64,000 bases of DNA from Wenzhouxiangella sp. XN24 (GTDB taxonomy: Bacteria > Pseudomonadota > Gammaproteobacteria > Steroidobacterales > XN24). The stretch is from NCBI RefSeq assembly GCF_011064545.1, contig NZ_JAAMFG010000017.1:124001-188000 (forward strand). Reading direction: 5' to 3'. Both the position numbers and the translations under genes were made by a program. Below are positions 43,980-54,995 of this stretch, piece after piece. A model generated the notes under the pieces. That model was not told the origin of the DNA. It saw only the letters and a program-made list of their open reading frames with translations, and did not search any database. Within the stretch, counting starts at the first letter, position 1, and each line of letters begins with the position of its first letter.

Positions 43980-44025
43980 GTCGGCGAGCCGCCGGCCCTG
44001 CGATGGCCCGGGCGATACCCCAAAG

Positions 44026-44110
44026 CCCAGCCCAGCCCAGCCCAGTCCAGCCCAGCCCAGTCCAGCCCAGCCCAGTCCAGCCCAGCTCAGGTCAGCTCAG
44101 CCCAGCTCAG
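44026..44110. repeat. Pentanucleotide tandem array (CCCAG and variants, 17 units)
   Basis: Seventeen consecutive 5-bp units. Mostly CCCAG with TCCAG every third unit, forming a 15-bp higher-order repeat (CCCAGCCCAGTCCAG), then CTCAG/GTCAG variants. It lies between two convergent genes and includes the stop codon of the 93-residue protein at 44107-44109. Confidence 0.95.
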
Positions 44111-44388
44111 CTGCCGCGATTCTTTTTGGGCCCCGGCGTCAATTGCACGCGACCCGCCTTGCCGAGCCGGCGCTCGTTGAGCCGGATCACGATGTCCGCG
44201 ACCGCCTGGGTGACGGCCTGCAGGCTGCCTTCCCGGTGCCCGACGATGGCATTGGGGCCCTGCGCGATCTCGTAGCGGTACCAGGTTGCGGAGACAGCCC
44301 CCTCGGGCGCTTCCGCACGCGTGATGGACGACACCTTGAACGGATGATCCGTGCGCCCTGCGGCGGCTTTCTCGATCTTTTCAGTCAT
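44107..44388 (-). CDS. Conserved hypothetical small protein
   Basis: 93 residues starting MTEKIEKAAAGRTDHPFKVSS. The centre reads ATWYRYEIAQGPNAIVGHREGSLQAVTQAVADIVIRLNER, suggesting a small mixed alpha/beta fold with an aromatic strand. The tail is basic (GPKKNRGS). There is no signal peptide or membrane span, and I do not recognise a family. Its stop codon lies in the pentanucleotide array. It is divergent from the YgbA-like gene. Confidence 0.6.
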   Translation of the reverse strand: MTEKIEKAAAGRTDHPFKVSSITRAEAPEGAVSATWYRYEIAQGPNAIVGHREGSLQAVTQAVADIVIRLNERRLGKAGRVQLTPGPKKNRGS

Positions 44389-44468: not shown

Positions 44469-44483
44469 GATGCCTATTGCATC
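44469..44483. promoter_or_regulatory. GATGC-N5-GCATC dyad upstream of the YgbA-like gene
   Basis: Perfect inverted repeat GATGCCTATTGCATC ending 14 bases before ATG 44498, next to GAAGGGGG. The half-sites recall NsrR, which controls this family in E. coli, but the spacing is shorter than the NsrR consensus. It may instead be an mRNA hairpin close to the ribosome site. Confidence 0.35.
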
Positions 44484-44497
44484 TGAAGGGGGAAAAT

Positions 44498-44971
44498 ATG
44501 TATATAGCCTGCATGAATAAGCATGGCACTGCTGCAGGCGGCAGCCTGCTCCTCACGCCGCGCCTGCGGCGCGAGTACCGCACGATGGAATGCATGGTGG
44601 AGATCTGGTGCGCCGATCATCATGACGAGGCCGCGCGCCGGGGAGCCACCTGCGACGACTGCCGGGCGTTTCTGGCCTATGCGGAGCGGCGTCTCGAAAA
44701 ATGCCCCTATGGCGAAGCCAAGCCGACCTGTGCCAAGTGTCCCATCCACTGCTACAAGCGGGCGCAGCGCGAACACGCGCGAGTGATCATGGCTTATGCG
44801 GGACCGCGCATGACCTATCGACATCCCTGGCTGGCGCTCATGCACCTCGTCGACAAGGTGCGCAAAGTCGAGCATCCCATGGAAATCCGGCGCCGCAGGG
44901 CGCGCCGGGACGCCGCCGATCCGCACGCGACCACGCGCGAGAATGGGCCCGACGACAGACTGCAGGAATAG
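44498..44971 (+). CDS. Nitrous-oxide-stimulated promoter family protein (YgbA-like)
   Basis: 157 residues from ATG 44498 with a strong GAAGGGGG site. The family core is RRLRREYRTMECMVEIWCADHH-like: RREYRTMECMVEIWC, CDDCRAFLAYAERRLEKCPYGEAKPTCAKCPIHCYKRAQREHARVIMAYAGPRMTYRHPWLALMHLVDK. Six or more Cys suggest a metal or Fe-S site. E. coli YgbA is induced under nitrosative stress by loss of NsrR repression. Its biochemical role is not known. Confidence 0.85.
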   Translation: MYIACMNKHGTAAGGSLLLTPRLRREYRTMECMVEIWCADHHDEAARRGATCDDCRAFLAYAERRLEKCPYGEAKPTCAKCPIHCYKRAQREHARVIMAYAGPRMTYRHPWLALMHLVDKVRKVEHPMEIRRRRARRDAADPHATTRENGPDDRLQE

Positions 44972-45056: not shown

Positions 45057-45800
45057 ATGGCCGGCGACCCGGTTTCCCGACGTGGTTTTCTGAAGCTCTG
45101 CGCCAGCACCGGCGCGCTCGTCGCGAGCAGCCCCTCGCTGCTGGCGGACTCGACGCCGGAACGAGTCCCGGCGCCCCCGGCGACGCTGGTGGATGCCACG
45201 GGATCGCCGCTGCGCATCGACCAGCTCGCCGTCGGCGAAAGCTATGTCTTTCACTATCCTTTCGTCAGCACGCCGTGTTTCCTGATCAACCTGGGCAAAC
45301 CCGCCCTCCCCCAGGAACGCCTGGAGATGGACGACGGTCGCAGTTACCGCTGGCGCGGCGGCGTCGGCCCGCAGCGCTCCGTGGTCGCGTTTTCCGCAAT
45401 CTGCGCACACCGCATGACCTACCCGACACCGACCGTCAGCTTCATCCACTACCGCCACGGGCCGATGGCTTTCACGGACAAGGACTACACGCCGACCGAG
45501 CGCGAGCAAGTGATCTACTGCTGCTCGGAAGGCAGCGTGTACGACCCCGCCGAGGGTTGCCGCGTGCTGGGCGGTCCTGCACCGCAACCCCTGGCGGCCG
45601 TGGACCTGGCGTTCGACGAACAGACGGGCGAACTGCGCGCTCTCGGCACCTATGGTGGCGACATGTTCGAGCGCTTCTTCGAGAAATTCGGTTTCCAGCT
45701 CGCCATGCAACAGGGCAGCGAGGCCATCAGGGCGCCGGCCGGGCCGACGACCACGGTGCTGCCGCTGGGCGAATACAGCCAGAACACCAACGTCTGCTAG
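45057..45800 (+). CDS. Tat-exported Rieske-like iron-sulfur protein with altered cluster ligand
   Basis: 247 residues. The Tat signal is SRRGFLKLCASTGALVASSPSLLA (R8-R9). The later part has a Rieske-like layout: C116-x-H118 in AICAHRMTYPTPTVSFIHY, and after 36 residues YCCSEGSVYDPAEGCRVLGGPAPQPLAAVDL. The second box, normally CxxH, reads C155-C-S-E158, so the second His ligand is replaced by Glu unless another residue substitutes. It is periplasmic if exported. No obvious partner oxidase is adjacent. It could be an electron carrier or a degenerate subunit. Confidence 0.7.
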   Translation: MAGDPVSRRGFLKLCASTGALVASSPSLLADSTPERVPAPPATLVDATGSPLRIDQLAVGESYVFHYPFVSTPCFLINLGKPALPQERLEMDDGRSYRWRGGVGPQRSVVAFSAICAHRMTYPTPTVSFIHYRHGPMAFTDKDYTPTEREQVIYCCSEGSVYDPAEGCRVLGGPAPQPLAAVDLAFDEQTGELRALGTYGGDMFERFFEKFGFQLAMQQGSEAIRAPAGPTTTVLPLGEYSQNTNVC

Positions 45801-46507
45801 GACTTCAGCAAGGCCTCCGCCTCCCGGTGGCCCTGCATGCGTGCGACCTCCGCGGGCGTGCGTCCGGCGCCATCGGTGGCCAGTGGCTCGGCGCCAGCTT
45901 CGAGGAGGCACTCCACGATCCCGGCGAAACCCCTGCCCGCCGCAATGTGTAACGCGGTCGCGCCCGACTCCTCCCGCGCCTCGAGTTCCGCCTGCCCCGA
46001 CGCCAGCAGCACTTCGACGGCCTCGATGTAGTTGCCGGAAACCGCCCGCATGAGCGGCGTCCATCCATAGGCATCCGGAGTCGCTGCTTCCGCGCCGCTC
46101 GCCAGCAACAGCTCGATGACCGTCGCCCTGCCCTTGGCCGCGGCAACCAGCAACGGCGTCCAGCCAATTCGGGCGCGCGCGTTCGCATCGGCACCGTTCG
46201 CCAGCAGGAAGGCGGCGGTCTCCACCTCGTCAGCCGCCGCCGCATACATCAGGGCGGTTCCGCCGTTTGCATTTCTTTCGTCGATTCCGGCGCCGGCCTC
46301 CACGAGGCGCCGGACCTCAGGGAGACGGCCCTCGCTGGCCGCAGCCATGAGCTCCGTCTTGCCGCTGGAGGAGGGCGCCGCATGCTCGTGAAGCGTCTCG
46401 AGGTTCCCGTCCCAGGACGGATAGTCCTCCGCGGAAGAGTCCGTGGCGGGCGCCGATCCTGCTGCAAGCAGCAGGCCGAGCACAATCGGTGTCAGCGTGA
46501 TTTTCAT
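45797..46507 (-). CDS. Exported ankyrin-repeat protein
   Basis: 236 residues with a signal peptide (MKITLTPIVLGLLLAAGSAPA). About five ankyrin repeats cover residues 48-236: GKTELMAAASEGRLPEVRRLVEAGA, GGTALMYAAAADEVETAAFLLANGA, GWTPLLVAAAKGRATVIELLLASGA, GWTPLMRAVSGNYIEAVEVLLASGQ and GATALHIAAGRGFAGIVECLLEAGA. It is a periplasmic protein-protein interaction module of unknown partner. Tail-to-tail overlap of four bases with the Rieske-like gene. Confidence 0.9.
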   Translation of the reverse strand: MKITLTPIVLGLLLAAGSAPATDSSAEDYPSWDGNLETLHEHAAPSSSGKTELMAAASEGRLPEVRRLVEAGAGIDERNANGGTALMYAAAADEVETAAFLLANGADANARARIGWTPLLVAAAKGRATVIELLLASGAEAATPDAYGWTPLMRAVSGNYIEAVEVLLASGQAELEAREESGATALHIAAGRGFAGIVECLLEAGAEPLATDGAGRTPAEVARMQGHREAEALLKS

Positions 46508-46601: not shown

Positions 46602-47702
46602 TCAGGTCGCCGCGTGCCCAGCCCCCCGTGGTGCTTCCACGTTGGCGGGGCGCGTGCCCTGCTTCTTGAGTTCGTCATACCAGACGCTGTGGTGCGCCTT
46701 GGCCCAGGCCTCGTCCACTTCGCCGGTGATCATCCCCTCGAGGGACCCTTCGTTGCCGAAGGTGCCGAGATAGATATGACCGACCGAGAAAGCGATCAGG
46801 CCGATGCCGCTGATGGCATGCGCGAGGTGTGCGATCTGCATCCCGCCGCGCTCCGTGCCGAGATTCGGGAACAGCAGGAACACTCCCGAGACCACCAGCA
46901 CGATCCCGCCGAAGAACAGGCTCCAGTACCAGATCTTCTCGCCGGCGTTGACGAAGCCGGCCGGCGGGTGCTTCGACTTGTCGAGGTAGCCGCCGCCCAT
47001 CTTGATCCAGGTCCAGTCATAGGCCTTCGGCAGGCTGTCCTTCAGCCACGGCACCATCATCATCACGAGGGTGACGATGAAGGGGACGGCCAGCCAGTCA
47101 TGCACCGGCTTCGCGATCGCGGCGAAGGCGGCGAAGCCCTCCTTGCCGAGGATCGGCGTGAGGACCATGCGCCCGAACAGCAGGCTGAGCCCGGTGATCG
47201 CCAGGATGATGAAGAGTGCCGCGGTGACCCAGTGGATCGTTCGATCGTACGTGCTCCAGCGCGTGATCGTCCGGCCGGTACGGTGTTCGAGCTTCACGGA
47301 ACCTGCAACGAAGTGGAACAACAGGATCGCCACGATGACGCCGAGCAGGCCGATGCCGCCCCAGCGCAACAGGGGCCCCTCGCGCACCGCGCGCCAGACG
47401 TCGCCGCCGCTCTGGATGAGCACGCCGGTTTCCTGGCCGGTCACTGCGCTGTAGCCGGACACGCCGCCCCGCGCCTGGCGCCAGAAATCACGCCGCTGCT
47501 GCTCCGATTGCGCGAGCTGTGCAGCATCATCGCCGGACTGGGCCTGCTGGGCTACCGCCTGCCCTGACGGGCCCTCGGTGAGCAGCCAGCCGCTCAGCGG
47601 CAGGATCATGGATAGACCCAGAATCAGCGCGACGCTCCAGACGATCCGGCGGGCTTTCCGCCGCTGGCGTCCGCTGACTTCCGATTGTGTATTGTCGACC
47701 AT
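46602..47702 (-). CDS. fdhI: Formate dehydrogenase gamma subunit, cytochrome b
   Basis: 366 residues from ATG 47702. A hydrophobic N-terminal helix (RIVWSVALILGLSMILPLSGWLL) precedes a long periplasmic insert. The cytochrome b core follows: TRWSTYDRTIHWVTAALFIILAITGLSLL, KPVHDWLAVPFIVTLVMMM, WYWSLFFGGIVLVVSGVFLL and HLAHAISGIGLIAFSVGHIYLGTFG, with the His residues expected to bind two hemes. It takes electrons from the periplasmic alpha/beta subunits to the quinone pool. The C-terminal VDEAWAKAHHSVWYDELK is typical of FdnI/FdoI relatives. Last gene of the operon before a strong terminator. Confidence 0.93.
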   Translation of the reverse strand: MVDNTQSEVSGRQRRKARRIVWSVALILGLSMILPLSGWLLTEGPSGQAVAQQAQSGDDAAQLAQSEQQRRDFWRQARGGVSGYSAVTGQETGVLIQSGGDVWRAVREGPLLRWGGIGLLGVIVAILLFHFVAGSVKLEHRTGRTITRWSTYDRTIHWVTAALFIILAITGLSLLFGRMVLTPILGKEGFAAFAAIAKPVHDWLAVPFIVTLVMMMVPWLKDSLPKAYDWTWIKMGGGYLDKSKHPPAGFVNAGEKIWYWSLFFGGIVLVVSGVFLLFPNLGTERGGMQIAHLAHAISGIGLIAFSVGHIYLGTFGNEGSLEGMITGEVDEAWAKAHHSVWYDELKKQGTRPANVEAPRGAGHAAT

Positions 47703-47736
47703 CACGTGGAATCCTCCCGTCGTGTGGGCTGAGTGA

Positions 47737-47919
47737 CTAACGGTCGCGCTGGTGTTCGACGCGATCCTCAAGGGCAGATCTCAGTTCTTCCGACCTGAGG
47801 TCCTCGACCAAGGGGTCGCTCGAACCCTTGTATACGCCAGGCTCGTAAACCGTGACATCCGAACAGCCCGCAAGAGCCACGGACGCCGCGGCCAGCAGAG
47901 CCAGGGTGATAATTCTCAT
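47737..47919 (-). CDS. Small lipoprotein in the formate dehydrogenase operon
   Basis: 60 residues: MRIITLALLAAASVALAGCSD is a lipoprotein signal with lipobox LAGC. The mature part is 42 residues, acidic/basic and helical at the end (VEDLRSEELRSALEDRVEHQRDR). It lies between the beta and gamma subunit genes, both on the minus strand. Role unknown. It may tether or stabilise the complex at the membrane. Confidence 0.75.
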   Translation of the reverse strand: MRIITLALLAAASVALAGCSDVTVYEPGVYKGSSDPLVEDLRSEELRSALEDRVEHQRDR

Positions 47920-47985: not shown

Positions 47986-48573
47986 CTAGGCTTCCTTGTA
48001 GGCGGTTTCCCAGCCCCAGGTCTGCGGACGGCTGCCGCGCTTCAGGACGCGCTCGCGGTAGATGTCGGCGACCATGTCGCCATCACCCGCCAGCAGCGCC
48101 TTGGTCGCGCACATCTCCGCGCACAGCGGCAGCTTGCCCTCGGCGATGCGGTTGGTCCCGTACTTGATGTACTCGTCTTCCGAGTTGTTCTCCTCCGGGC
48201 CACCTGCGCAGAAGGTGCACTTGTCCATCTTCCCGCGGATGCCGAAGGCTTCCTTCTGCGGGAACTGGGGTGCGCCGAACGGGCAGGCATAGAAGCAGTA
48301 GCCGCAACCGATGCAAAGGTCCTTGTCGTGCAGGACGATGCCGTCGTCGGTGGTGTAGAAACAATCCACCGGGCAGACGGCCGCACAAGGCGCGTCCGTG
48401 CAGTGCATGCAGGCGACGGAGATCGAGCTTTCGCCCGGCAGGCCGTCGTCGAGCGTGACCACGCGGCGGCGATTCACGCCCCAGGGCACTTCGTGCTCGT
48501 TCTTGCACGCCGTTACACAACCGTTGCACTCGATGCAGCGCTCGGAATCACAAAGAAATTTCATTCTCGCCAT
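47986..48573 (-). CDS. fdhB: Formate dehydrogenase beta subunit, four-cluster ferredoxin
   Basis: 195 residues. Four [4Fe-4S] Cys groups: CDSERCIECNGCVTACKNEH, CMHCTDAPCAAVCPVDCF, CIGCGYCFYACPFGAP, and CTFC...CAEMC split by a loop. There is no C-terminal membrane helix, unlike E. coli FdnH, which agrees with the short FDH3-type beta subunit. It passes electrons from the alpha subunit to the cytochrome b subunit. It is probably exported as a complex with alpha by the Tat system, as it has no signal of its own. Confidence 0.94.
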   Translation of the reverse strand: MARMKFLCDSERCIECNGCVTACKNEHEVPWGVNRRRVVTLDDGLPGESSISVACMHCTDAPCAAVCPVDCFYTTDDGIVLHDKDLCIGCGYCFYACPFGAPQFPQKEAFGIRGKMDKCTFCAGGPEENNSEDEYIKYGTNRIAEGKLPLCAEMCATKALLAGDGDMVADIYRERVLKRGSRPQTWGWETAYKEA

Positions 48574-48587
48574 GGTGAGTTAACTCC

Positions 48588-51479
48588 TTACGCCGGGCGA
48601 ATCTGGCAGAGCGAGGCTTTGGTTTCCTGCATGTTCGTGACCGAGTCGTACCCGTAGGTAAACGCATCGTTCGCTGCAGAGCCCCGGACATACGGATGAG
48701 TGCCTTCAGGATACTTGGATAACAAGTCCTTGCCCTCGAACCACCCGCCGAAATGATACGGCGTGAACACGACGCCCCGGCCCACGCGGTTGGTGATCAT
48801 GGCCTTGAGCTTGATCACGCCGCCTTCCGGTCCGTCCATCCACACCCAGGTGTCGTCCTTGATGCCGCGATCGTTGGCGTCCGCCGGGTTGATCTCGACG
48901 AACATCTCCTGCTGCAGCTCGGCGAGCCAGGGGTTGGACCGCGTCTCCTCGCCACCGCCTTCGTACTCGACCAGGCGGCCGCTGGTGTGAATCAGCGGGA
49001 AGTCCTTGGAGAAGTCCTGGGCCTGGATCGAGCCGTAACGGGTCGGCAGGCGCCAGAAGGCCTTGCGGTCCTCGTAGGTCGGATACTCTTCGACCAGGTC
49101 GCGGCGGCTGGTGTACAGCGGCTCGCGGTGGACGGGAATCGGATCGGGGAAGTTCCACACCTTGCAACGCGCCTTGGCGTTACCGAAGGGCGCGCAACCG
49201 TGCTTGATGGCGACGCGCTGGATGCCGCCGGAGAGGTCGGTCTTCCAGTTCCTGCCCTCGGCCGCGACCTTCTCTTCCTCGGTCAGGTCATCCCACCAGC
49301 CGAGCTGCTTCAGCATGTCGGCGGTGAACTCGGGATAGCCGTCCTCGATCTCGGCGCCCTTGCTCCAGGAATCCTCGGCCAGCAGGTTCACGCCCTGGTA
49401 CTCCACGCCGAAACGGGCGCGGAAATTCAGGCCGCCTTCGGCCACCGGCTTGCTGGTGTCGTAGAGCACGTGCGTGCCGGGATGGCCCATCTCCGGGGTG
49501 CCCCAGCAGGGCCACGGCAAGCCGTAGGTCTCGCCGTCGCAGGGTCCGCCCTCGGCCTTCAGCGTCGTGACATTGAAGGTGTGCTTGTTCTCGAGGTGCT
49601 TCTTGAGGCGCTCCGGGCTCTGGCCGGTGTAGCCGATCGTCCACATGCCGCGGTTGAACTCCCGCGTGATGTCCTCGATCAGGGGCTCCTCGCCGTTCAC
49701 CTGGATGTTCTTGAACAGCTGGTCGGAGTAGCCGAGCTTCTTGGCGAGCTTGTACATGATCGTGTGATCAGGCAGCGACTCGAACAGCGGCTCGATGATC
49801 TTCTCGCCCCACTGGAGCGACCGGTTGGACGCGGTGCGGGACCCGTAGGTCTCGAACTGCGTGCAGGCCGGCAGCAGGTACATGCCTTCCTTGTCGCGAT
49901 CCGGCAGCACGGCGGTGTGCGTCGGGTAAGGATCGACGACGACCACCAGGTCCAGCTTCTCCAGCGCCTGCTTCTGCTCGGCGCCACGCACCTGGCTGTT
50001 GATCGCGTGACCCCAGAGGAACAGCGCTTTCAGCGCGGTCTTCTGGGAGACGTTCTCGTCCGATTCGTTGACGCCGTCGTACCAGCGCGACACGGTGATC
50101 CCCGGCAGGTTCATTGCCGGCACCATGTTCGATCCGTTGGGATAGCTGGCCTGGTCGAACCGCGCCTTCAGCCAGTCGAAGTCGACGTCCCACACGCGGG
50201 CCCAGTGCCTGTAGGAGCCCTCGGCGAGGCCGTAATAGCCGGGCAGCGTGTCGGCCAGGATGCCGAAGTCGGTGGCGCCCTGGACGTTGTCGTGGCCGCG
50301 GAAGATGTTGGCGCCGCCGCCGGACACGCCGACATTACCCAGCGCCAGCTGCAGCACGCTGTAGAGGCGCGTGTTGTTGTTGCCGATGGTGTGCTGCGTG
50401 CCGCCCATGCACCAGACGATGGTGCCGGGACGATGCTCGGCCATGGTCTGCGCGGCCTTCTTCACCTCGTCGCCGGGAATCCCGGTGACGTTCTCGACGA
50501 CGTCGGGGGTCCACTTGGCGGTCTCGGCCCGGATGTCGTCCATGAAGGCGACACGCTGGCGGATGTATTCCTTGTCCTCCCAGCCGTTCTCGAAGATGTG
50601 CCACAGCAGGCCGTAGATCAGGGGCACGTCGGTGCCCGGCCGCAGCCGCAGGAACTGGTCCGAATGCGCCGCGGTGCGCGTGAAGCGCGGGTCCGCGACG
50701 ATCAGCTTGGCGCCGTTCTCCTTACCGCGCAGCACGTGCTGCATCGAGATCGGGTGCGCCTCGGCGGCGTTGCTGCCGATGAAGAACATGCACTTGCTGT
50801 TGTGCATGTCATTGTAGGAATTGGTCATCGCGCCATAGCCCCAGGTGTTGGCTACGCCGGCGACCGTCGTCGAGTGGCAGATACGGGCCTGGTGGTCGAC
50901 GTTATTCGTCCCCCACATGGCCGCGTTCTTGCGATAAAGGTAGGCGCCCTCGTTGCTCATCTTCGCCGAGCCGACCCACATCACGCTGTCGGGGCCGTGC
51001 TTGGCGCGGATGTCCAGGAGGCGGTCGCCGATCTCGTTGATCGCCTGGTCCCATGACAACCGCTGCCACTTTCCGTTGACGTTCTTCATCGGGTACTTGA
51101 GCCGACGATCGCCATGCCCGTGCTCACGCACGGAGGCGCCCTTGGCGCAATGCGCCCCCAGGTTCAACGGGGAGTCGAAATCCGGTTCCTGGCCCGTCCA
51201 GACACCGTTCTGGACTTCGGCGACGACGCCGCAGCCGACTGAACAGTGGGTACAGACCGAGCGCTTGATCTCGATCGGGCCTTTCACCATCTCGCGGGCC
51301 GCCTGGGCCTGCGAGCGGCGCATCATCGCCGGGGGCAGCGCCGAGGCGATCGCGCCGGCGCCGAGCGCCAGGCCGGTCCGGCGCAGGAAGGCGCGCCGGT
51401 CGATCGCCCGACCCAGCACGCCGTTCAGTGCGCTGGTGGACTCGTTATTGGTAGCAGTAGTTTTCTTGGTCAGCTTCAT
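48588..51479 (-). CDS. fdhA: Formate dehydrogenase alpha subunit, Tat-exported Mo/W-bis-MGD protein (Cys type)
   Basis: 963 residues. Tat signal: DRRAFLRRTGLALGAGAIASALPP (residues 27-50). The [4Fe-4S] ligands are C76, C79, C83 and C111 (CTHCSVGC and AHCAKG). The metal ligand is C201 in NVDHQARICHSTTVAGVANTWGYGAMTNS, with the conserved His next to it. There is no in-frame TGA, so this is a cysteine, not selenocysteine, enzyme. GSNAAEAHPISMQHVL and the C-terminal molybdopterin-dinucleotide domain fit formate dehydrogenases. It oxidises formate to CO2 in the periplasm. Confidence 0.95.
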   Translation of the reverse strand: MKLTKKTTATNNESTSALNGVLGRAIDRRAFLRRTGLALGAGAIASALPPAMMRRSQAQAAREMVKGPIEIKRSVCTHCSVGCGVVAEVQNGVWTGQEPDFDSPLNLGAHCAKGASVREHGHGDRRLKYPMKNVNGKWQRLSWDQAINEIGDRLLDIRAKHGPDSVMWVGSAKMSNEGAYLYRKNAAMWGTNNVDHQARICHSTTVAGVANTWGYGAMTNSYNDMHNSKCMFFIGSNAAEAHPISMQHVLRGKENGAKLIVADPRFTRTAAHSDQFLRLRPGTDVPLIYGLLWHIFENGWEDKEYIRQRVAFMDDIRAETAKWTPDVVENVTGIPGDEVKKAAQTMAEHRPGTIVWCMGGTQHTIGNNNTRLYSVLQLALGNVGVSGGGANIFRGHDNVQGATDFGILADTLPGYYGLAEGSYRHWARVWDVDFDWLKARFDQASYPNGSNMVPAMNLPGITVSRWYDGVNESDENVSQKTALKALFLWGHAINSQVRGAEQKQALEKLDLVVVVDPYPTHTAVLPDRDKEGMYLLPACTQFETYGSRTASNRSLQWGEKIIEPLFESLPDHTIMYKLAKKLGYSDQLFKNIQVNGEEPLIEDITREFNRGMWTIGYTGQSPERLKKHLENKHTFNVTTLKAEGGPCDGETYGLPWPCWGTPEMGHPGTHVLYDTSKPVAEGGLNFRARFGVEYQGVNLLAEDSWSKGAEIEDGYPEFTADMLKQLGWWDDLTEEEKVAAEGRNWKTDLSGGIQRVAIKHGCAPFGNAKARCKVWNFPDPIPVHREPLYTSRRDLVEEYPTYEDRKAFWRLPTRYGSIQAQDFSKDFPLIHTSGRLVEYEGGGEETRSNPWLAELQQEMFVEINPADANDRGIKDDTWVWMDGPEGGVIKLKAMITNRVGRGVVFTPYHFGGWFEGKDLLSKYPEGTHPYVRGSAANDAFTYGYDSVTNMQETKASLCQIRPA

Positions 51480-51780: not shown

Positions 51781-52455
51781 TCAACTGAAACTCTTTTGCG
51801 CCGACGGCGTAGAAAGGAAATCGTTGAGATACCGTTTCTCCACCTCGATGAACTGCTCCCCGAGCTGGCCCACCGCGCGATAGAAACGCGCCGACGGGGC
51901 CGATTGCATGTCACGGAAGAAGCGGGCCATCCAGGGTGAAATGTGACGATCGAAAAATCCCGCCTGCTGCTCGAGCGAGGCCGGTTGATCGCCGGTGTTG
52001 ATCATGGCCATGACGTCACACAACGCCGCCGCATGATCCTCGGGCTCCTTGACGCCTTCCTGGCGCTCGAATCCCAGCTGGAGGAGTTCCTCGCGCAGGC
52101 GGGCAAGCGGCTGCTCCATGAGGAATCCGGTCATGTACCAGGAGCCGTAGGGCACCAGTTCGCCACGGCCCACGCCGATGAAGAGGTCGTGATACTCCTC
52201 TTCCAGCTCCGCGGGCGAACTGCGCCCCGCAGCGGTGCCGAGCATGCGCCAGGCCGCGCCGAGCAGGTCGTCCGAGTTCACCTCGTCCGCGTCGATTTCC
52301 GCCAGCAGGCTGAGGATCTGTTCGTCGGGCGCGGCGCCCAGTAACTGGGCCAGCAGGCTCCACGCATTGGCGCGCAACTGCTCTTCCGCGGCGATGCCAT
52401 TGATCGCTACGTCCCTTGAAACCTCCGCCCCGCCTTCAGTGACAGCGTCCGTCAT
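51781..52455 (-). CDS. TorD/DmsD-family redox enzyme chaperone
   Basis: 224 residues from ATG 52455. An upstream in-frame ATG at 52488 would add 11 residues, but it would precede the transcription start predicted from the sigma-54 site at 52491-52506. The all-helical TorD pattern is seen: AWSLLAQLLGAAPDEQILSLL, ELEEEYHDLFIGVGRGELVPYGSWYMTGFLMEQPLARLREEL and EPEDHAAALCDVMAMI. It should bind the fdhA Tat signal and help cofactor insertion before export. First gene of torD, Tat-target, fdhA, fdhB, lipoprotein, fdhI. Confidence 0.9.
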   Translation of the reverse strand: MTDAVTEGGAEVSRDVAINGIAAEEQLRANAWSLLAQLLGAAPDEQILSLLAEIDADEVNSDDLLGAAWRMLGTAAGRSSPAELEEEYHDLFIGVGRGELVPYGSWYMTGFLMEQPLARLREELLQLGFERQEGVKEPEDHAAALCDVMAMINTGDQPASLEQQAGFFDRHISPWMARFFRDMQSAPSARFYRAVGQLGEQFIEVEKRYLNDFLSTPSAQKSFS

Positions 52456-52490
52456 CGAATGCTCGTCTTTATCATTATGGTCAATCATTT

Positions 52491-52615: not shown

Positions 52616-54283
52616 TCAGGCGCCGGGAACGCCAGGGCCGCCGGACTTGAACATGTCCTTGACGCGGCAGTGCTCGCACATCTGCAGGCGACGGCGGGAG
52701 GCTTCGTCCTGGAACATCCAGTGCCCTTCCAGCTTCTTCAGCATCGACTCCAGCAGGGAGCGGGTGCCGAACGGCTTGCCGCAGGCCACGCAACAGAAAG
52801 GCTGCTCCTCGTTGAGGATCCGCGGCTGCTGGCGCAGCTCGGCGTCGTAGAGAAAACGGGTATGCAGGGTGATCGCGTCTTCCGGGCAGGCCTTTTCACA
52901 AAGGCCGCACTGCACGCAATTCCACTCCGTGAACTTCAGTTGCGGCAGGTCGCCGCCGGCATCCAGCGCCGCCACAGGGCAGACGCTGACGCAGCCCATG
53001 CACAGCGTGCACGCGTTCTTGTCGACCTTGATTTCCCCGAATGGCGCGCCGGCGGGCAATTCCGTCGTCTTGCGCGGCGCCGGGGCATGCCGGTGCAGGT
53101 GCTCGATCGCCAGCCGCAGGATCGCGCGCTTGTCGTCGGGTAACGCAAACCTGGCCGGCTTGGCGATGCCGGCGGCCGGGAGCGCGCCCCACCAGCCGGC
53201 CGGATCGGCCGCGGCGCTGGCGCTGCTGATCACAGTCAGGCTCTCGGGAGGGAAGCCCATGCCCTCGAGGATTCCGCGGCCGAAAAGCACTTGCGCCTCG
53301 ATCTCCGTGACCATGCGTCGCGGGGCAGTGTCGGTCACTACGACGACCACCGCCCGGGCCCCGTAGGCCAGCAGCGCCAGCCAGGTGTCCAGCCCGACCG
53401 AGCCGACTTCCTCCACCTCCAGCGGCAGCACGTCCTCCGGCATCTCGGGGCCGAGCGTCTCGGCCACGGTCTTGCTCGACCAGGCGTCGTGAATGAGCAC
53501 CACGGGACTCTCGCCGCCGGCGTCGCGGAACGCGCCGAGGAACAGCTTCAGATGGGCCAGCAGGTCGCTGACTGCCGGGAAGGCATAGCTCATCGCGCCG
53601 CTCGGGCAGGCTGCGACGCAACTCCCGGCACCCTGGCACAGGTAGGGATCGACGCTGACTTTTTCCCCGATGGAGGTGATCGCCAGCGTCGGGCAGGCAT
53701 CGATGCAGCGCGTGCAGCCGACGATGCCGCTGCCGCCGTGCGCGCAGATGTCCGGGTTGTAATTGAAATACTTGGGTTTCTCGAACTCCCCGCTCATCTC
53801 GGGAATCTCGGCGAGCGCCTTCTCGAGCTTGGCGTCGTCGCCCGCGGGCGCGTAATACCCGACCGGCGGCACCTCGTGCGTCATCAGCGGCACGGGGGAA
53901 AGATCGAGCACCAGGTCGAAGAAACTCCCCGGGTTGCCGGCCGCCTCGGACAGCGACACCGTGCCGTCGGGCGTTTCGAGATTGACCGTGAAGCGACCGA
54001 GCCGGCCCTCGATTTCGGGCCGCCCGCCGCGCACGACGACACGCCCCTCGCGGGTGCCGGGCTCGGGCCGCGCCGCAGAAGGCACGAGCACGGTACAGGG
54101 AATCGCTTCGCCGAGTCGGCGCGCCAGCGAAAGCGCGAGATCCTCCTCGCCCACGATGACCAGTCGGCCACTCGATTTATAGGTCACGATCGAGGTCGGC
54201 TGGCCCTCGATCGAAACAGGCATCTGCAATGCCTGGGCGCGCGCGCGCCCGGCGCTGCTCGTGGCGGGAAGCTCATGCGTCAC
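52616..54283 (-). CDS. Multi-cluster 4Fe-4S protein of the formate dehydrogenase locus
   Basis: 555 residues from GTG 54283, with AGGAG about ten bases upstream. The frame is open further but would read through the DUF3306 gene. Cys groups: CTRCIDACPTLAI, CQGAGSCVAACPSGAM, CTLCMGCVSVCPVAAL, CVQCGLCEKACPEDAI, then CVACGKPFG and CEHCRVKDMF near the end. The N-terminal 170 residues (RLVIVGEEDLALSLARRLGE) look like a cofactor-free Rossmann-like domain. This protein regularly accompanies DUF3305/DUF3306 and fdh genes. It probably transfers electrons or takes part in maturation. No signal peptide, so cytosolic. Confidence 0.85.
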   Translation of the reverse strand: MTHELPATSSAGRARAQALQMPVSIEGQPTSIVTYKSSGRLVIVGEEDLALSLARRLGEAIPCTVLVPSAARPEPGTREGRVVVRGGRPEIEGRLGRFTVNLETPDGTVSLSEAAGNPGSFFDLVLDLSPVPLMTHEVPPVGYYAPAGDDAKLEKALAEIPEMSGEFEKPKYFNYNPDICAHGGSGIVGCTRCIDACPTLAITSIGEKVSVDPYLCQGAGSCVAACPSGAMSYAFPAVSDLLAHLKLFLGAFRDAGGESPVVLIHDAWSSKTVAETLGPEMPEDVLPLEVEEVGSVGLDTWLALLAYGARAVVVVVTDTAPRRMVTEIEAQVLFGRGILEGMGFPPESLTVISSASAAADPAGWWGALPAAGIAKPARFALPDDKRAILRLAIEHLHRHAPAPRKTTELPAGAPFGEIKVDKNACTLCMGCVSVCPVAALDAGGDLPQLKFTEWNCVQCGLCEKACPEDAITLHTRFLYDAELRQQPRILNEEQPFCCVACGKPFGTRSLLESMLKKLEGHWMFQDEASRRRLQMCEHCRVKDMFKSGGPGVPGA

Positions 54284-54995
54284 GTGGCGGCTGCTCCTGG
54301 TCGTTGTTCGGATCGATTTCCGCGGTTTCTTCGCTCGGGCCGGTCGCCGCCTGCTCGCCGGTCTCACCCGGCTGACGAGCGGCAGCCCGATCATTATCGC
54401 CGCCCGCGGGATCCCCACCGGCAGCCTCACTCTCCACAGACGGTGCGGACCCGGCGTCCGTCGCCGCCACGCCGCCCGCTGCCGTTCCCGCCGCCGCGTC
54501 GTCGGTCGCCGCGGCCTCCGCCGCCTCCAGTTGCTTTTTGAGCAGCCTGGCTGCGGCATGCTTCATGTCGGAGGTCACTATGTCGCCCAACGCCGGGTAG
54601 TTCCGGTAGTCGTCGATGTAGTCGTCGAGCTCGCTGATGACATTGAACTTCTCGCTGCGGAACAGCTTGCGCAGGGCCTGCTTGCGCAAGCCCGCGCTGA
54701 CGCGCGGCGACATGAAGGCACTGAAGTCCGAGTCCGGCGTCAGCGATTCGAGCGGCGGCATATCCTCGTCACCCGGCGGCTCGCCTTCGGCCTCGGGTGC
54801 AGGCGCGGGGGATGCTTCGGCCAAAGGCGCCTCTGCAGGTGCATCGGCGTGCTCCGCAGCCGGCGGCGCCTGCTCGGGCGCCTTGTTCTGCGCCTTGAGC
54901 CGGGACCAGCGACTGAGGAACGACTCCTCGTCCTTGTGCTCCTCGTCGGCAGGCGCCGCCGGCGCGCCTGGCCTGGCCTGTTCGCGATCAGCCAT
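54273..54995 (-). CDS. DUF3306 protein
   Basis: 240 residues. SFLSRWSRLKAQNKAPE opens the conserved region, and DEDMPPLESLTPDSDFSAFMSPRVSAGLRKQALRKLFRSEKFNVISELDDYIDDYRNYPALGDIVTSDMKHAAARLLKKQLE is the family core. It is surrounded by Ala/Pro/Glu-rich stretches that are probably disordered. Cytosolic. The family is known only as a companion of Mo/W formate dehydrogenases. Its end overlaps the next gene by 11 bp. Confidence 0.85.
   Translation of the reverse strand: MADREQARPGAPAAPADEEHKDEESFLSRWSRLKAQNKAPEQAPPAAEHADAPAEAPLAEASPAPAPEAEGEPPGDEDMPPLESLTPDSDFSAFMSPRVSAGLRKQALRKLFRSEKFNVISELDDYIDDYRNYPALGDIVTSDMKHAAARLLKKQLEAAEAAATDDAAAGTAAGGVAATDAGSAPSVESEAAGGDPAGGDNDRAAARQPGETGEQAATGPSEETAEIDPNNDQEQPPRDA

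Follow-up and report, generated by a model that had tools for sequence, protein, structure and literature searches.

A glutamate stands in place of a cluster histidine in the Rieske-like protein encoded in the window (the whole 64,000-nucleotide stretch from Wenzhouxiangella sp. XN24 that was analysed). The substitution is conserved among relatives and is not the result of decay, confirming the observation made in the original prediction. The explanation that we favour, with moderate confidence, is that this is a Tat-exported periplasmic Rieske-type [2Fe-2S] protein with a Cys2-His-carboxylate cluster, and the likely electron-transfer partner of the adjoining FDH3. The family suggests a classic electron carrier that has been re-tuned, in which glutamate or aspartate at the place of a ligand histidine accompanies a particular kind of formate dehydrogenase. 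The features of the locus are listed in Table 1.

Table 1. Features of the Rieske-like gene and of the neighbouring fdh genes (window positions).
Feature	Position	Strand	Basis
Rieske-like protein, 247 aa	45057..45800	+	Profile match to SoxF and AioB
Tat-type signal sequence (RRGFLKLC), end approximate	45057..45140	+	TIGR01409, 23.2 bits vs cut-off 16.7
Box I, C116-A-H118	45402..45410	+	C116 and H118 invariant, 42/42
Box II, C155-C156-S157-E158	45519..45530	+	E158 at ligand His position (SoxF/AioB register)
S160-V-Y162, Ser/Tyr pair tuning Rieske clusters	45534..45542	+	S160 42/42; Y162 Tyr 38, Phe 4
C247, C-terminal cysteine, candidate disulfide partner of C156	45795..45797	+	42/42; putative pairing
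Ankyrin-repeat protein, signal-like N-terminus, convergent	45797..46507	-	Pfam Ank; stop codons overlap in CTAG
FdhC, formate dehydrogenase cytochrome b subunit	46602..47771	-	TIGR01583, 187.7 bits vs 115.85
FdhB, FDH3 beta subunit	47986..48573	-	NF038355, 348.9 bits vs 240
FdhA, FDH3 catalytic (molybdopterin) subunit	48588..51479	-	TIGR01591 best match, 474 bits, below cut-off 666
TorD-like chaperone	51781..52488	-	NF003442, below cut-off

The two boxes had been read correctly, as CAH from residue 116 and CCSE from residue 155 of the 247-aa open reading frame (codons TGC GCA CAC and TGC TGC TCG GAA), and box II is directly followed by GSVYDPAEGCRVLGGPAP. A Tat-type signal, in line with the predicted export, was supported by TIGR01409, which scored above its cut-off on the window protein, and by R8 and R9, present in 41 of 42 family members. 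A Pfam scan of the window protein returned no Rieske domain, with TAT_signal below cut-off. The gene is present as a single copy in the window genome. Directly upstream, on the same strand, is a gene for a YgbA_NO (nitrous oxide-stimulated promoter) family protein (window 44474-44971, +), and a YgbA_NO-related ORF also lies upstream of the Rieske-like gene in several relatives. A tandem array of the 5-base unit AGCCC (17.6 copies, 86% matches) is located further upstream, at window 44024-44111.

The description of the protein as Rieske-like was upheld by the family profile, which matched SoxF in the PDB at 4.1e-17, AioB chains at 7.6e-16 or weaker, and other Rieske proteins. The sequence of the window protein by itself also found SoxF (8.9e-11) and AioB. 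In the register of the profile, C155 falls on a ligand cysteine, C156 on a proline and E158 exactly on the ligand histidine of SoxF and AioB, as expected if a glutamate has taken the place of a cluster histidine, while S157 falls on a disulfide cysteine in SoxF and a glycine in an AioB variant. The NCBIfam model TIGR03171 matched all 42 full-length members, and Pfam PF00355 matched only 5 of them, the window protein not included. Two AlphaFold models built on three-sequence alignments (window, L002 and L003) had pLDDT values of 41.7 and 45.3 and are of no use for geometry; in a Foldseek search with the second, poor as it is, AioB and SoxF took matches 1-12, in agreement with the sequence result.

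Homologous loci were collected from several overlapping samples, and the counts of relatives take in the starting genomes. Among near genomes, 14 of 97 gave relatives (four of them weak matches to ordinary CPCH Rieske proteins), as did 14 of 396 genomes of the order, 18 of 369 of the class and 4 of 398 of the phylum. A search of one large family, started from an Asp-type member, gave relatives in 14 of 120 genomes, and in another class, with 210 genomes searched, the starting genome was the sole carrier. A Rieske-like gene was also present on two MAG contigs of a MAG collection; the viral contigs searched contained no relatives, and the plasmid search returned only four AioB-like matches at about 26%. 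Altogether 46 loci were collected, of which 45 reach box II (the fragment L087 ends before it). The full-length alignment has 42 rows, leaving out the fragments L034, L082 and L087, and L074 with its misplaced start, of which the final 238 residues were used in the tree. The proteins of L002 and L003 are identical to those of L006 and L008 and were counted once.

Across the 45 loci with box II, residue 158 is Glu in 29, Asp in 10 and His in 6, and nothing else, whereas the residues on either side vary freely in the 42 full-length rows (S/A/L/G at 157 and G/R/K/Q/H/N/A/D at 159). The nearest relatives of the window protein, from the same genus and 75% identical, have a Glu-type box II, and CCSE or CCAE is found in them and in all other Glu-type relatives, which rules out a sequencing error or chance. 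Seven positions (C116, H118, C155, C156, S160, D163 and C247) are invariant in all 42 rows, and Y162 is Tyr in 38 and Phe in 4; passages of PMC3758308 describe equivalents of this Ser/Tyr pair as tuning known Rieske clusters. Residue 158 is therefore best explained, on these alignments, as a metal ligand, since only Glu, Asp or His occurs there, it is in the register of the ligand histidine, the other ligands are invariant and the Ser/Tyr pair is conserved. A decayed Rieske protein that has lost its cluster would account for the one missing canonical ligand. We consider this very improbable, however, as there are 20 invariant columns in 42 sequences from many families, the reading frames are open with no internal stops, and Glu and Asp interchange at 158. 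The conservation of E158 and its surroundings agrees with the earlier argument against simple decay and disfavours the alternative, raised with it, that the cluster is lost.

The two remaining conserved cysteines could perhaps be explained most simply by a disulfide between C156 and C247, because both are kept whichever residue stands at 158, and the family lacks the canonical disulfide. The cysteines that form this disulfide in bc1-type Rieske proteins (CxHxxC and CxCH) would be at 121 and 157, and neither position is Cys in any of the 42 rows, residue 121 being T/S/V/A/M. In 4 of the 42 members the mature part has no cysteines beyond 116, 155, 156 and 247, and therefore C156 and C247 are the only possible pair in these if 116 and 155 are ligands. 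As the structure models are poor, support for this putative disulfide comes from the sequences only.

The invariance of C156 and C247 is also what would be expected of a Cys3-His cluster, in which one of them is the fourth ligand and E158 a second-shell residue. This arrangement seems unlikely to us because both cysteines are just as constant in the six members of the His type, where the four ordinary Cys2-His2 Rieske ligands are kept, and because position 158 is limited to ligand-type residues. Of the two ligand sets originally offered, Cys2-His-Glu is therefore favoured, as far as sequence can tell, and Cys3-His is disfavoured. The invariant vicinal Cys pair and C-terminal Cys, together with the lack of a Pfam Rieske match, could instead indicate a protein with no 2Fe-2S cluster, which would have a mononuclear metal site or carry out thiol-redox reactions through C155, C156 and C247. 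We give this a similarly low probability, as the register, the Ser/Tyr pair and the existence of His-type members all fit a Rieske cluster.

In the Cys2-His-carboxylate cluster that we prefer, C116 and C155 would bind one iron, and H118 would bind the other together with the E158 carboxylate, whose place is taken by Asp or His in relatives. With the usual disulfide between box I and box II absent, the C156-C247 disulfide would probably pin the tail near the cluster. An anionic carboxylate in place of a neutral histidine would be expected to lower the potential of the cluster and alter its proton coupling, and a lower potential could suit a low-potential donor such as FDH3, if electrons flow in this direction.

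It had been proposed that homologues with a His at this position would overturn the Glu reading. Such homologues do exist, but only as a separate branch with another gene neighbour; the close homologues have Glu, and another branch mostly Asp. In a tree that kept box II and was rooted with AioB and three order-mate Rieske rows, one branch parted 6 His rows from 37 carboxylate rows (SH-aLRT 95), three changes accounted for H, E and D at 158 (two of them taken by D) and the root fell on the His side. The change at 158 is therefore likely to have gone from H to E, as the outgroups have His, though this direction is not settled. With column 158 masked and AioB removed, the carboxylate rows did not form exactly one clade, and forcing them together cost 0.95 log-likelihood units (p-AU 0.247); the His/carboxylate split was kept in this analysis, with root and direction left free. 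As the tree has the His and carboxylate types parting just once, the link of this change with the gene partner counts only once.

The presence of FDH3 was scored by its beta subunit (NF038355), which was found in 37 of the 39 Glu/Asp genomes and in none of the 6 His genomes. The two Glu/Asp genomes in which it was not detected, G677 and G735, are 72% and 85% complete. Within the same order, FDH3 was present in 14/14 carriers of the Rieske-like gene vs 0/21 non-carriers (Fisher p 4e-10, kinship uncorrected), and in the large family of the Asp branch in 12/12 carriers vs 7/14 non-carriers (Fisher p 0.006, kinship uncorrected), the 35 non-carriers having been chosen by hand from the genomes of the near and large-family searches. 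In one genus, five genomes have both the gene and FDH3, and six others tested have neither. As half of the large-family non-carriers have FDH3 with no Rieske-like gene, FDH3 does not require this protein. The FDH3 beta match in one genome (G003 C112, 16964-17500) contains one in-frame TAG.

The gene neighbourhoods of 43 loci (the window and 42 others) were derived from a home-made choice of ORFs by conservation with no gene finder, which under-calls FdhB especially, and some contigs end nearby, making absences weak. Of 28 Glu-type neighbourhoods, 22 include the ankyrin-repeat protein, 21 include FdhC and 20 include FdhA; among the Asp-type ones, FdhA and FdhB were near in 1 of 9. In most loci the Rieske-like gene and the fdh operon converge, and in L054 and L058 the gene is co-directional, 46 and 52 bp after FdhC. 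All six His-type genes, by comparison with 0/37 Glu/Asp genes, are directly preceded by the gene of a flavoprotein resembling that of flavocytochrome c sulfide dehydrogenase (FCSD). Two of these flavoproteins were scanned with Pfam, and the others belong to the same protein cluster. There were no CxxCH ORFs of at least 70 aa within 4 kb in the six His-type loci, and therefore the His-type protein may stand in there for FCSD's cytochrome c subunit.

Several other genes were observed around these loci. In L069 (5137-8974) the His-type gene lies between two FCSD-like flavoprotein genes, all in the same direction. A protein of about 190-210 aa is encoded beside FdhC in five distant loci (for example L055 4665-5228 and L065 2897-3532), the L055 copy having no Pfam or NCBIfam match, and in L065 and L067 a cNMP-binding/patatin protein (767 and 782 aa; Pfam for L065 only) lies between the Rieske-like and ankyrin genes. 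In the window, a long ORF with several 4Fe-4S domains (52616-54559, -) is located upstream of the fdh operon.

The protein most likely functions as an electron carrier, because the carboxylate types are partnered by FDH3 and the His types by an FCSD-like flavoprotein. The main rival is a role in FDH3 maturation or stability, in which the Rieske-like fold binds a cluster or metal and, with the ankyrin protein, assembles or protects periplasmic FDH3 with no electron transfer. The ankyrin-repeat neighbour, the partly separate transcription implied by the convergent gene order, and the Asp branch, which co-occurs with FDH3 yet is unlinked to it, are all consistent with such a factor, as is the 40-56 kb stretch of the window, which contains no CxxCH cytochrome c ORF of at least 80 aa except one 85-aa ORF antisense inside fdhA. 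We nevertheless regard it as rather unlikely, as the family has conserved both the ligands and the tuning residues of an electron-transfer cluster, and the partner of the His-type relatives is a redox flavoprotein. Counting against the electron carrier are the poor quality of the structure models, the failure of PF00355 to match the window protein, the mostly unlinked Asp-type genes and the genomes with FDH3 alone; in addition, FDH3 has its own iron-sulfur and cytochrome b subunits, and therefore an extra carrier is not obviously needed.

The effects of ligands on the potential and proton coupling of Rieske clusters are known mainly from designed mutants. In this family, nature supplies His, Glu and Asp variants of a single scaffold, the residue type being matched to the gene partner, which makes ligand control of potential and proton coupling directly testable. 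If the electron-carrier explanation is true, it also names an overlooked component of FDH3-containing bacteria, as the Pfam Rieske model misses 37 of the 42 members. More tentatively, with confidence a little short of even, we propose that the fourth ligand forms a His/Glu/Asp series within one Rieske family, whose carboxylate forms would be low-potential carriers adapted to FDH3 and stabilised by a C156-C247 disulfide; this may be the first Rieske fold with a cluster ligated by a carboxylate. In the open-licence full text of PMC, subscription papers being outside its scope, there was apparently no paper describing a Glu- or Asp-ligated Rieske protein or a Rieske-like gene beside FDH3.

When compared with known systems, the family departs from the Rieske ligand motif CxH...CxxH, the window protein having CxH...CxxE, and Glu or Asp takes the place of the last His in 39 of 45 loci. 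With the model of the bc1 Rieske subunit (TIGR01416) the window protein scored 15.4 bits vs a cut-off of 97.4. The window genome has a separate bc1 Rieske protein (G000 C21), as do 44 of 45 carrier genomes at E 1e-15, and therefore the Rieske-like protein is not its replacement. With SoxL2 (TIGR03171, 1.8e-24) the window protein scored 86.3 bits vs a cut-off of 582.1, making it a relative and not a member. The best solved relative is SoxF (Rieske protein II of Sulfolobus, PDB 1jm1), which shares the FxYP...PCFL and GPAP stretches and has colinear boxes but, unlike the window family, contains CVHLGC and CPCHGS, with two ligand histidines and the usual disulfide cysteines.

AioB is also a Rieske protein of the Tat type, and it partners a molybdopterin enzyme from the DMSO-reductase superfamily. 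However, it has the ligand histidine, is smaller, and neighbours AioA instead of FDH3; the window protein scored 41.1 bits (1.5e-10) with the AioB model TIGR02694 vs a cut-off of 95.65, and has FDH3 and no AioA as neighbour. RsrR, which does not have a Rieske fold, differs from the family reported here. A precedent for Cys2-His-Glu ligation of a [2Fe-2S] cluster is described in passages on RsrR, an Rrf2-family regulator that draws its ligands from two subunits (PMC11138216).
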